Below are positions 5,436 through 45,002 of a stretch of DNA of 45,982 nucleotides, in pieces. The stretch comes from a virus, in IMG/VR virus record IMGVR_UViG_3300017989_000032, positions 1 through 45,982 of that record. One strand, given 5' to 3'. The translations under genes were made by a program, and so were the position numbers. The notes beneath the pieces are model-generated. The model had not been told where the DNA came from. It worked only from the letters and a program-made list of their open reading frames with translations, and did no database searches. How positions within the stretch are numbered: position 1 is the stretch's first letter; each line of letters begins with the position of its first letter.

Positions 5436-5834
5436 CTAATTTTCTTCATCTTCGCTCCAATCTGGGCGGTGCCGCTTAACCCAATCCTTCACATTGACCG
5501 TTCCCGTGCAAACGACTTCGCAGGCCCAGGGCGTGTATTCCCGATGCACAACCTCAGCGAACGCCGTCGCTGCCTCTCGTATCTCAGTGGTGATACTATC
5601 CTTTACGTCTGCCTCCGGATCGAGCAAGTCCTCAAACATAAACTCAAAGACGTGCTCTAATACAGACTGAGCGATAACATCTGCCGCCGGTAACTCCATC
5701 GGCGCGAATCCCCGGACCTCCAGCGTCTCAGGTATGTCGCCGCCATCGGATAGATAGTCCTCTATCGCATCGTCCATGCCTGTGTGAGTCAAGCGTTCGT
5801 CGCCTCGGCAGTCCCAGAACTTAGCTTTTGCCAC
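5436..5834 (-). CDS. Hypothetical acidic protein (132 aa)
   Basis: A strongly acidic protein (DDAIEDYLSDGGDIPETLE) with a Trp/Cys-containing C-terminus (YTPWACEVVCTGTVNVKDWVKRHRPDW). The start is GTG at 5834 with AAGGGG about 5 nt upstream. N-termini reading WDxRGDERLTH are seen in small phage proteins of unknown role, to the best of recall. The next gene downstream is 22 nt away. There is no membrane or signal sequence. Confidence 0.65.
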   Translation of the reverse strand: MAKAKFWDCRGDERLTHTGMDDAIEDYLSDGGDIPETLEVRGFAPMELPAADVIAQSVLEHVFEFMFEDLLDPEADVKDSITTEIREAATAFAEVVHREYTPWACEVVCTGTVNVKDWVKRHRPDWSEDEEN

Positions 5835-5845
5835 TTTTGCCCCTT

Positions 5846-6340
5846 CTAAAACTTGATTCTTGCTCCAATCGTTACGGTTTCGTCCGATGCGTCACCAGTT
5901 ACATATTCAACCGCGAACGCGACTGTATAATCCGGGTCGTCGGCTACTCCGAACAGCGTGCCGACAATGACGTTCCCTCTTGCCCGCTCTTCACCCTTTT
6001 GCGATATGAGTATCTCGCCCCCGGCGTAAGGTCTGCCCACAAGTCGATGAAGCAGTTCCTCCCACGGATTGTCCGGGGCGGGGTCTTCGATGCCCAATAT
6101 CTCATTGATGTGGTAAATCAGGTATCCGCCAAATAAATCCGGTTCGGGTCCGAATTCAGGATTGCCGGTCAAATACTTGGCCGTTGCTCCAAATTCAAAG
6201 CGTTGTTTGGTTTCGTAACCGACGCGGACATTGAGCAGGCTGTCGGCATTATCAGCCGTCAGTCCCCACAATGTAATTCCATCATCGGCGAATGTTACGC
6301 CTGCCAAAAGCAGACACAGTAGTAATGGTGTCGTTTTCAT
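5846..6340 (-). CDS. Phage-encoded outer-membrane beta-barrel-like protein with signal peptide
   Basis: Starting at 6340 (AAGGAG 7 nt upstream), the protein begins MKTTPLLLCLLLAGVTFADD, a Sec signal peptide with a probable cut after VTFA. The mature part (about 146 aa) alternates hydrophobic and polar residues in strand-like runs (VRVGYETKQRFEFGATAKYL; YTVAFAVEYVTG). It ends in the aromatic VTIGARIKF, the C-terminal Phe expected of Bam-inserted barrels. Phage barrels such as Lom act at the lysogen surface or in superinfection exclusion; this one could do either. An intrinsic terminator lies directly upstream, so it may have separate control. Confidence 0.65.
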   Translation of the reverse strand: MKTTPLLLCLLLAGVTFADDGITLWGLTADNADSLLNVRVGYETKQRFEFGATAKYLTGNPEFGPEPDLFGGYLIYHINEILGIEDPAPDNPWEELLHRLVGRPYAGGEILISQKGEERARGNVIVGTLFGVADDPDYTVAFAVEYVTGDASDETVTIGARIKF

Positions 6341-41324: not shown

Positions 41325-41860
41325 GCTAACAACCCCAGTTTCTTCAACTCTTCCTGAACGCGGCCGGCGGCAATTTCTCCCTTTAACGACTTTTCCGTAT
41401 TCAAGGTTTCATCCGTCGATTTGCGAGTAGAACGTCGAAAAGATATCACTTTCCCTTTTCTCTCTTCTTCTCTCTCTTTATTAGGGGCTACTATAGTGTC
41501 CTCGGTAGGGATACTATAGTGTACCTTGCAGGGATACCATAGTGTCCTCTCTTTCAGAGAATATTTGGGCAAAAGTGAGATAATCATTACCCTTGATGTA
41601 TATGGTTTCCCATGCCGGGTAATGGTTGTTAAGCCCCGTCTTATTATTTTCTTCTCAAAGAGCGAGTGAATTAATCTTTTCACATAGCTTACTGATAACC
41701 CTATATTGGAGGCAATTGTTTCATTGCTGCCAGTCCACGGACTTGGCCAATATCGCCCGATTTCGATTAGGACTAATTTTTCAGCCGGCGTAATATCCGG
41801 GTGCTCCATGACACAATCGTATGCCATTGCATACTTTGGAGGCTTGCGCTTTGATGCCAT
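41321..41860 (-). CDS. Helix-turn-helix DNA-binding protein (replication/regulatory type, 179 aa)
   Basis: Residues about 20-80 form a winged helix: helix HPDITPAEKLVLIEIGRY, then TGSNETIASNIGLSVSYVKR as the helix-turn-helix, and a wing. This is the arrangement of phage replication-initiator N-termini (helix-turn-helix_36-like) and of some repressors. The C-terminal half is basic and disordered. It may cooperate with the primosome-like protein at 7044-7427. Its leader carries an attenuator with an anti-ribosome-site loop, so translation is probably controlled. Confidence 0.65.
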   Translation of the reverse strand: MASKRKPPKYAMAYDCVMEHPDITPAEKLVLIEIGRYWPSPWTGSNETIASNIGLSVSYVKRLIHSLFEKKIIRRGLTTITRHGKPYTSRVMIISLLPKYSLKERTLWYPCKVHYSIPTEDTIVAPNKEREEERKGKVISFRRSTRKSTDETLNTEKSLKGEIAAGRVQEELKKLGLLA

Positions 41861-42746: not shown

Positions 42747-42919
42747 TCTTCTGGCATTTTTTCGTACTCTGCGCATAATTTTACCCTTGTTTCGACCGGC
42801 AACAGCGGGACAAAATAACCTTGCCGGTAGGACTCAATGTTGTTTTTGTTTTTCGGATGTGCGCATATGAGTCGCTGCGACTCAATGTAATCCACGTATT
42901 TACACGTTCGGCACTTCAT
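42734..42919 (-). CDS. Zinc-binding protein (61 aa)
   Basis: MKCRTCKYVDYIESQRLICA with His and a later Cys (KLCAEYEK) could bind one zinc. ATG 42919 has GAGGAGCAAAA upstream and overlaps the AlpA-like stop. The longer start at 42976 would lie in the AlpA-like gene. No family is recognised. Confidence 0.6.
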   Translation of the reverse strand: MKCRTCKYVDYIESQRLICAHPKNKNNIESYRQGYFVPLLPVETRVKLCAEYEKMPEEWGT

Positions 42920-43104
42920 TTTTTGCTCCTCGGACAGCCTTTTTTGATCCATTGCTCGATGGTGGCTTGTTGCCAACGTATTGCTCCGCCGATACGCAAT
43001 GGCTTCGGGATTTTCCCGTCGATCACGTACCGGCCGACGGTCCTTGTAGTCACACCGAGCATCTGAGCAACGTCTTTAATCGTCCATAATCTCTCTGTTT
43101 CCAT
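42916..43104 (-). CDS. AlpA/excisionase-type helix-turn-helix protein (62 aa)
   Basis: ERLWTIKDVAQMLGVTTRTV followed by GRYVIDGKIPKPLRIGGAIRW is the MerR-like winged helix of AlpA/excisionase proteins, at their usual length. The C-terminal residues form the basic end of the last helix. Such proteins act as excisionases or as small transcription activators. It is the first gene leftward from the divergent promoters. AAGGAGTAAAC precedes the ATG. Confidence 0.85.
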   Translation of the reverse strand: METERLWTIKDVAQMLGVTTRTVGRYVIDGKIPKPLRIGGAIRWQQATIEQWIKKGCPRSKK

Positions 43105-43190
43105 GTTTACTCCTTATCTAACATCACAAATAGTTTAGCGTTTCCATTTTCTTTGATTTTCTTCACATCTTTTTTTATCAATTATCGGCC

Positions 43191-43218
43191 CTTATAGCTC
43201 AAAAACCGCTATTGTCAA
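43191..43218 (-). promoter_or_regulatory. Leftward early promoter
   Basis: TTGACA (43213-43218), 16-nt spacer, TATAAG (43191-43196): perfect -35 and 5/6 -10. It should drive the AlpA-like gene and possibly the long leftward transcript. A leader of about 80 nt precedes 43104. Confidence 0.65.
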
Positions 43219-43247
43219 CATTTTTCTATTATTTTCTCAAAAAAGGC

Positions 43248-43276
43248 TTGACTTTACAACAGAAATAGTCGATAAT
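43248..43276 (+). promoter_or_regulatory. Rightward early promoter
   Basis: TTGACT (43248-43253), 17-nt spacer, GATAAT (43271-43276), in an A+T-rich stretch. It lies 29 bp from the leftward promoter, forming the main divergent early control region. Confidence 0.65.
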
Positions 43277-43310
43277 ATATATAGTCAATGATGTTGATCT
43301 TTGACAAGTA

Positions 43311-43324
43311 AATAACGGGCAAGC
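43311..43324 (+). repeat. 14-bp inverted repeat, left arm
   Basis: AATAACGGGCAAGC; its perfect reverse complement lies at 43656-43669, so the pair brackets the gene at 43350-43649 (331 bp between the arms). Confidence 0.7.
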
Positions 43325-43349
43325 GAAAAGAAGGGACGGGCAAACTATT

Positions 43350-43649
43350 ATGACAATCATCGAACAAATCTTAAGCATAAAAAAAGACACGTCTATACTA
43401 TGGCAATACGGCAAAAGTAAAAAGGATGTTCTGGGAGAAATCCAAGAAGCCGTTGACGGTTTAATCGCAGCAAAAAAGTACCTGCCAGAGACATATAAAA
43501 TCAACGAAGTTGTCGGCGTTCCAGAATGGTTCCAGCTTAAAGATCGTAAAGTTGGAATGAGTTATTGTCAAATCAGCAATTACGTTAAGTACATCATCCG
43601 TACAGGACGGCTACTTAAGAGACCATACAAAATCGCTAACCATTATTAG
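43350..43649 (+). CDS. Hypothetical early protein enclosed by an inverted repeat (99 aa)
   Basis: MTIIEQILSIKKDTSILWQY begins a helical protein with a basic C-terminus (SNYVKYIIRTGRLLKRPYKI). AAGGGACGGGCAAACTATT offers a weakly placed ribosome site. This is the first gene after the rightward early promoter, a place typical of host-takeover or anti-defence genes. No family is recognised. Confidence 0.6.
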   Translation: MTIIEQILSIKKDTSILWQYGKSKKDVLGEIQEAVDGLIAAKKYLPETYKINEVVGVPEWFQLKDRKVGMSYCQISNYVKYIIRTGRLLKRPYKIANHY

Positions 43650-43655
43650 ACAATA

Positions 43656-43669
43656 GCTTGCCCGTTATT
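43656..43669 (+). repeat. 14-bp inverted repeat, right arm
   Basis: GCTTGCCCGTTATT, the perfect reverse complement of 43311-43324, located 6 nt after the stop of the enclosed gene. Confidence 0.7.
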
Positions 43670-43671
43670 GT

Positions 43672-43719
43672 AGCCTTGGCTAAAGATAGGCTGTAGTGGT
43701 GCGAATCCATGACAAGGCT
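43672..43719 (+). promoter_or_regulatory. Intergenic hairpin with 7-bp closing stem
   Basis: AGCCTTG (43672-43678) pairs perfectly with CAAGGCT (43713-43719) around 34 nt that include a T-loop-like TGCGAAT closed by TGG/CCA. It is too short to be a tRNA. Confidence 0.4.
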
Positions 43720-43756
43720 TTAGATTTGAATAGATAAGTTAAGAAAGATATTCACA

Positions 43757-43864
43757 ATGACGACTACCAAACAATCCAAAACACAATCACGGGCGCTCGA
43801 AGGTTTAAATCGATGTGGTAGTCGTCTGCCGGAGAGCGCCCATCTTTTAAGGACGACTACCATG
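43757..43864 (+). promoter_or_regulatory. Leader with competing complementarities around the start codon
   Basis: GACGACTACCA occurs at 43759-43769 and 43852-43862; its reverse complement lies at 43816-43826. The downstream copy ends on the first base of the ATG at 43862, so pairing there hides the start while pairing with the upstream copy frees it. GGGCGCTC (43791-43798) and GAGCGCCC (43834-43841) cross either pairing, giving a pseudoknot. An in-frame ATG at 43757 could encode a leader extension. Confidence 0.55.
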
Positions 43865-44134
43865 AAAGACAAACCGCACAATATGATCGAAGTCATCGAA
43901 TTTTGTAAGACCCACCATTTACCGGCTGATATTGTCGGTCGATGGGTTTGGGTAAAATTCGAGGAAAAACCATCCACTGAAACCCGCACTCTACTAAAAG
44001 ACTATGGTTTTCGATGGTCGAAACGACGTGGAGAATGGGCGCATAATTGCGGCCATCCGACAAAGCCGGGCCATTGTATCCCTCGCGAAAAATACACTGT
44101 GCAGCATATTGAAGATGAAAAGGCGGTGGCATAA
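43862..44134 (+). CDS. Hypothetical early protein (90 aa)
   Basis: ATG 43862 has AAGGA at normal spacing. The upstream in-frame start at 43757 would add 35 residues read from the structured leader. The core (VGRWVWVKFEEKPSTETRTL; YGFRWSKRRGEWAHNCG) resembles small phage and plasmid proteins in which a Trp-rich strand hairpin is followed by GF.W....W. Their function is unclear. The stop overlaps the next start (ATGA-type at 44134). Confidence 0.6.
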   Translation: MKDKPHNMIEVIEFCKTHHLPADIVGRWVWVKFEEKPSTETRTLLKDYGFRWSKRRGEWAHNCGHPTKPGHCIPREKYTVQHIEDEKAVA

Positions 44135-44361
44135 TGATACGAGCAATCACGCTACCGGCAATAAACAAAACTGTATCTTTGGCTCAATATGTCAAGGCTA
44201 TCAAAATAGCCAAAGCAAATCCCGACGTGGAGTTTAAACATGGATTGACGTGTTGGTGGCCCTGTAAAGGCTCACAAATTATGCTGCAATTCCGGGATGG
44301 TATGATGCAAAGAATCAGTGAGGCGCGGCCATATGTTACGCGCGGGATGGACGGTGAATGA
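44134..44361 (+). CDS. Hypothetical protein (75 aa)
   Basis: [20 protein letters not shown] followed by [20 protein letters not shown]. Similar small proteins with a central WWP motif are common in phage early regions, to the best of recall, but have no known role. Both ends overlap neighbours, so it is translated with the ATPase. Confidence 0.65.
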
Positions 44362-45002
44362 TGAACTTGTATGAGCAATACAGACCGAAAACCTTTGACG
44401 ATGTATTAGGCCAAGATAAGGCCGTAACGAAAATTCAAAGACTAATTGCGCGCGGCTGGGGCGGCCGCGCGTACTGGATCAGTGGGGCCAGTGGTACGGG
44501 CAAGACGACTATTGCCAAGATTATCGCCGGGATGAAAGCCGACGAGCATTTTACCCTTGAATTTGACAGCGCCGACAAAGTTGGCGTATCCGATATGGAT
44601 TACATTGACGAGTTTCTTTTGTACGGCGCATGGGGCAAGGGCGGCAAGGCTATCATTATCAATGAGGCGCATGGACTCCGCAAGCCTATCATTCGACGTT
44701 TGCTCGGAGTATTAGAGCGCCTACCGAAACACGTCGTGATTATCTTCACAACGACCAAACTCGGAGAAAAAAAGCTATTCGAGGATGAGATTGACGCTAA
44801 CCCTCTTTTATCTCGATGTGCTAAAATAGAATTGACAAATCAAGGTTTGGCCGCGCCGTTTGCCGAACGCTGCCGCGAAATTGCCCAGGTTGAAAATCTG
44901 GACGGAAAGCCTATCAAAGCCTATATCAATCTGGCTCAAAAGTGCCGAAACAACTGTCGTGAAATGCTTATGGCGATTGAATCCGGCGAAATGTTAGTAT
45001 GA
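44358..45002 (+). CDS. Clamp-loader-like AAA+ ATPase (DnaX/RFC type, 214 aa)
   Basis: [18 protein letters not shown] is the standard opening of DnaX/RFC subunits. Walker A is SGASGTGKT (42-50); Walker B-like is IIINEAH (99-105, with Asn for the usual Asp). Sensor 1 lies at VVIIFTTTK (126-134) and the SRC motif at residues 152-154. It lacks the C-terminal oligomerisation domain (usual length 350 or more). It may load or unload the host sliding clamp, or replace a host subunit for phage replication. No phage polymerase or clamp is visible. Confidence 0.78.

Follow-up and report, generated by a model that had tools for sequence, protein, structure and literature searches.

In phage lambda, the cIII mRNA adopts alternative structures in a temperature-dependent manner (as summarised in PMC4166951, citing Altuvia et al. 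1989), and the aapA type I toxin mRNAs of Helicobacter pylori pass through successive, exclusive pairings of the Shine-Dalgarno sequence during transcription (PMC6733600). In the hok and icaR mRNAs the end of the message folds back to its start, and this pairing blocks initiation (PMC3868564). The element described here, at positions 43757-43864 of a virus record of 45982 bases (the window, i.e. the whole stretch of DNA that was analysed), may plausibly act as an RNA switch or timer at a start site, and is a candidate from a single genome. Like cIII as summarised in PMC4166951, it would be a phage mRNA with two exclusive conformations, one of which hides the ribosome-binding site. Unlike cIII, to which no sequence relation is shown, it has no described temperature input, and the summary of cIII in that source does not mention a layout of identical copies or a pseudoknot.

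Like the aapA mRNAs, it would form pairings at the Shine-Dalgarno sequence one after the other during transcription, each excluding the other; however, all aapA pairings close this sequence, whereas the first pairing here would leave it open, and aapA has an antisense RNA, whereas none was identified here and ORF2, the gene behind the element, encodes no recognisable toxin (PMC6733600). The hok and icaR fold-back (PMC3868564) is not homologous and resembles a 14-bp pairing around the preceding gene, ORF1 (43350-43649); it is long-range, and the element at 43757-43864 is local. A type I toxin-antitoxin mRNA of the hok or aapA kind was rejected, the ORF2 product being a polar protein of 90 amino acids with a DUF3560-like motif. 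In a scan of 42900-44400, no minus-strand promoter was found just 3' of the element, the nearest one starting at 44161.

The early operon and the start of ORF2

The window is a tailed-phage genome of approximately 46 kb, with the terminase, head-tail adaptor, major head and tail proteins encoded on the minus strand. Downstream of a divergent A+T-rich region, a plus-strand early operon runs from 43350 and comprises ORF1 (function unassigned), ORF2 (43862-44134, the putative controlled gene), a 75-amino acid protein with a TCWWPC motif and a clamp-loader subunit. The operon may continue, across a presumed join, at the window's left end, which carries a serine resolvase/invertase-like gene at 1930-2589 (PHROG 95 and 125), for which an invertible segment was not identified. 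A transcript from a candidate early promoter, TTGACT-17-GATAAT (43248-43276, plus strand, a consensus match only), would include the entire element, which is housed in the gap of 212 nt between ORF1 and the ATG at 43862. Intrinsic attenuation was discarded, as the promoter and terminator scan detected no terminator-like site in 42900-44400. The short motif of ORF2, LKDYGFRWS...W, resembles one in DUF3560-type and primase-like phage proteins; over 27 residues it recurs in a Desulfovibrio piger prophage (L002, L097) that has nothing else in common with this locus, and it is also weakly matched in a DUF3560 protein. Structures of ORF1 and ORF2 modelled from single sequences were of poor quality.

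The original prediction proposed that translation from an upstream ATG at 43757 would itself open the first of two competing pairings. This in-frame ATG (43757-43759, plus strand) is indeed present, 35 codons before 43862 and without an intervening stop codon. Its anti-Shine-Dalgarno energy is -1.4 kcal/mol (rank 29 of 31), as against -5.8 kcal/mol for the ATG at 43862, which is preceded at 8 nt by the Shine-Dalgarno sequence AAGGA (43849-43853). The ATG at 43862 is likely the true start of ORF2, and the one at 43757 is probably not a real or main start. The codon score of the 35-codon leader is -0.01, between that of coding sequence (0.22, sd 0.11) and that of off-frame windows (-0.34, sd 0.25), and is thus too ambiguous to establish the leader as coding; in a low-confidence model of the long form, the pLDDT of residues 1-45 is below 50, which says little. 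The weakness of this start weakens the case for its translation opening the first pairing.

Three matching arms and their rarity

All three 11-nt copies, the 8-bp helix that crosses their pairings and the contact with the start codon are exactly as the original prediction had placed them. On the plus strand, an upstream arm u (GACGACTACCA, 43759-43769) and an identical downstream arm d (GACGACTACCA, 43852-43862) flank a shared middle arm r (TGGTAGTCGTC, 43816-43826), which is exactly complementary to both. Pairing of r with u (helix A, 43759-43769/43816-43826) and with d (helix B, 43816-43826/43852-43862) is mutually exclusive. Arm d stretches from the Shine-Dalgarno sequence to the A of the ATG at 43862, so helix B would close the start; its ends extend it by one G-U and one U-G wobble (43815-43827/43851-43863; -21.0 vs. 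-18.0 kcal/mol), and the last three Shine-Dalgarno bases fall within the extended helix. Helix C joins GGGCGCTC (43791-43798) to GAGCGCCC (43834-43841, inside the loop of helix B). As both A and B cross C, A+C and B+C would each be an H-type pseudoknot, with an A/C-rich linker without G (43770-43790) as loop 1 of the A+C form.

This three-arm layout is real and non-random, far beyond chance. In 60 simulations, a random sequence of the window's size contained on average 0.05 triples of this kind (X-x-X within 110 nt) at 8 nt, and at 9-11 nt no triple was seen; a 9-nt triple did not arise in any of 3000 dinucleotide shuffles of 43250-43900. In 975 kb of other phage DNA there are three matches of at least 10 nt, all in one place, an origin- or operator-like intergenic array in which CCCAATGGG/CCCAGTGGG recur as palindromic repeats (5485-5930 of the viral contig L063). 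A perfect 11-bp hairpin covering the start was found at none of 1167 Shine-Dalgarno-preceded starts in other phage loci, and one of 10 bp at two. The 8-bp helix C is not rare by itself, and its crossing position is suggestive only.

The element belongs to no named family. Searches of phage, plasmid, viral and genome collections yielded no homologous region, GenBank phages gave no DNA match, viral contigs no exact or arm-pattern match, and ORF1 no protein relatives, though the searched collections may omit records very near the window, so that absence there is not proof. The structural relatives, at approximately 48% terminase identity (L009, L090, L091 and L093, from portal and terminase alignments), gave no match to ORF2 or to the clamp loader, and five loci with the TCWWPC motif share this third gene and lack both ORF2 and the clamp loader. 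No Rfam covariance model matched anywhere in the window at gathering score, which discards a curated riboswitch, thermometer or leader family, and with a relaxed threshold 43250-43950 gave chance-level eukaryotic matches only. A search for tRNA and tmRNA found none. At 43672-43721, a 7-bp stem (AGCCTTG/CAAGGCT), overlapped by a competitor (CTAAAG/CTTTAG), surrounds a T-loop-like hairpin (GTGG TGCGAAT CCAT); it looks tRNA-acceptor-like, without tRNA or Rfam matches.

A related arrangement is seen at ORF1, which has two upstream copies of ACGGGCAA (43311-43324 and 43336-43349), the second directly before its ATG at 43350. An inverted copy lies just past its stop codon (43652-43669), complementary to the first upstream copy at 14 of 14 positions and to the second at 13 of 14. 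The resulting long-range 14-bp helix is predicted with a probability of 0.96-1.0, and a 14-bp inverted repeat occurs in 0.07% of shuffles. This parallel supports selection in the region; the 8-nt core of the upstream copies recurs at 21 bp, two helical turns, a spacing which also suits a DNA operator. On the minus strand, a 10-bp hairpin (41868-41877/41897-41906) lies over the Shine-Dalgarno sequence TTGGAG of a replication-initiator-like gene starting at 41860.

Predicted folds and a possible order of events

In nested folding of 43750-43880, the minimum is helix B with 13 pairs including wobbles; the constrained minima are -32.0 kcal/mol for B, -31.5 for C and -28.8 for A, so that B and C are computed to be nearly equal and A is weaker than either by approximately 3 kcal/mol. 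Which of B and C dominates flips with the exact ends of the folded stretch or the length of the transcript. Transcripts ending at 43826-43838 give A a probability of 1.0, those ending at 43842-43858 favour C, and later ones a mixture of B and C, with B at 0.75-0.92 in the transcript-length folds. In every folded stretch with the whole element the probability of A is 0.00-0.05, and hence any role of A would be limited to a transient or pseudoknotted state. The nested model cannot represent A+C or B+C; a rough Dirks-Pierce-style sum from duplex energies, with penalty values from the literature, gives approximately -32.6 for B+C and -28.1 for A+C.

The stretch 43750-43880 is more stable than its shuffles (z -2.32), while the wider stretch 43670-43900 is no better than its own (z -0.68). 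The ORF2 start is not unusually closed, as opening it costs 6.4 kcal/mol, rank 11 among 36 starts of this phage, and when B is missing from the fold, bases near the ATG are still paired by a small hairpin, so that the 'open' state is not clearly open. The proposed two-state pseudoknot switch is partly supported: the RNA can form either of two helices that exclude each other, one of which covers the Shine-Dalgarno sequence and start as in a two-state translational switch, both are crossed by a third helix, and B and C are near-equal in energy; however, A is hardly populated and the closure of the start is ordinary. In these models the energetics allow the switch and do not demand it.

If the RNA folds in the cell as I infer, with A populated and translation responsive, arm r would first pair with u during transcription, since u is the only partner yet made. 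Helix C would form next, coexisting with A as a pseudoknot, and this A+C state would leave the Shine-Dalgarno sequence and ATG briefly free. Once made, d would compete for r, and B+C would be the more stable end state, covering the last Shine-Dalgarno bases and the A of the ATG, upon which translation would drop. The element would then be a timer, or a switch if a factor, the ribosome or temperature favours A or B. Tentatively, with chances somewhat short of even, I read 43757-43864 as a cis-acting RNA element that times the translation of ORF2 from the leader between two cistrons of an early phage operon. The full version of this reading is decidedly unlikely to be right in every part: a ligand-free co-transcriptional timer, in which identical copies compete for one arm within alternating H-type pseudoknots sharing a helix and give ORF2 a brief translation window, the same design of two copies and one complement also serving the preceding gene.

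The small share of A at equilibrium, and B as the predicted end state, would also be expected if B alone mattered as a start-closing hairpin, by constitutive damping or as an entry site for RNase III, with u being incidental. Such a hairpin does not need u, yet u matches d exactly over 11 nt, and C either competes with B or is knotted with it; I consider this explanation unlikely.

Other possible explanations of the repeats

Alternatively, the three copies may be protein-binding sites in the DNA, an operator or a replication iteron near the divergent early promoter region; the RNA pairing would then be a by-product. A helix-turn-helix gene lies close to the element, the sole comparable triple in the surveyed phage DNA is the intergenic repeat array, and the cores before ORF1 are two helical turns apart. 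However, the copies are only three, are not palindromic and are spaced at 57 and 36 bp, the window has no further exact copy (one with a single mismatch lies 1.6 kb away), and they lie approximately 500 bp inside the region presumed to be transcribed, precisely at a start codon; I regard a DNA-level role as improbable.

Template switching makes inverted copies of this type, and the arms could be the non-functional trace of a local duplication or template switch at the ORF2 start that left a direct and an inverted copy. In line with such an origin, u and d are part of a weak 30-nt repeat of 73% identity and both encode Thr-Thr-Thr with identical codons. Three perfect arms imply that such an event was very recent, or that selection has acted, and a duplication leaves helix C and the placement on the Shine-Dalgarno sequence and start unaccounted for; its probability appears low. 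Inversion of the DNA by the resolvase-like gene (1930-2589) was discarded, since a serine invertase site would seem to need arms longer than 11-14 bp.

If the timing element is real, an uncultured phage would have a compact translational timer, apparently without a ligand, that combines two identical arms with one shared pseudoknot helix, and it would add to the few worked examples such as lambda cIII, aapA and hok. At this stage, its main value is as a well-defined construct for testing.
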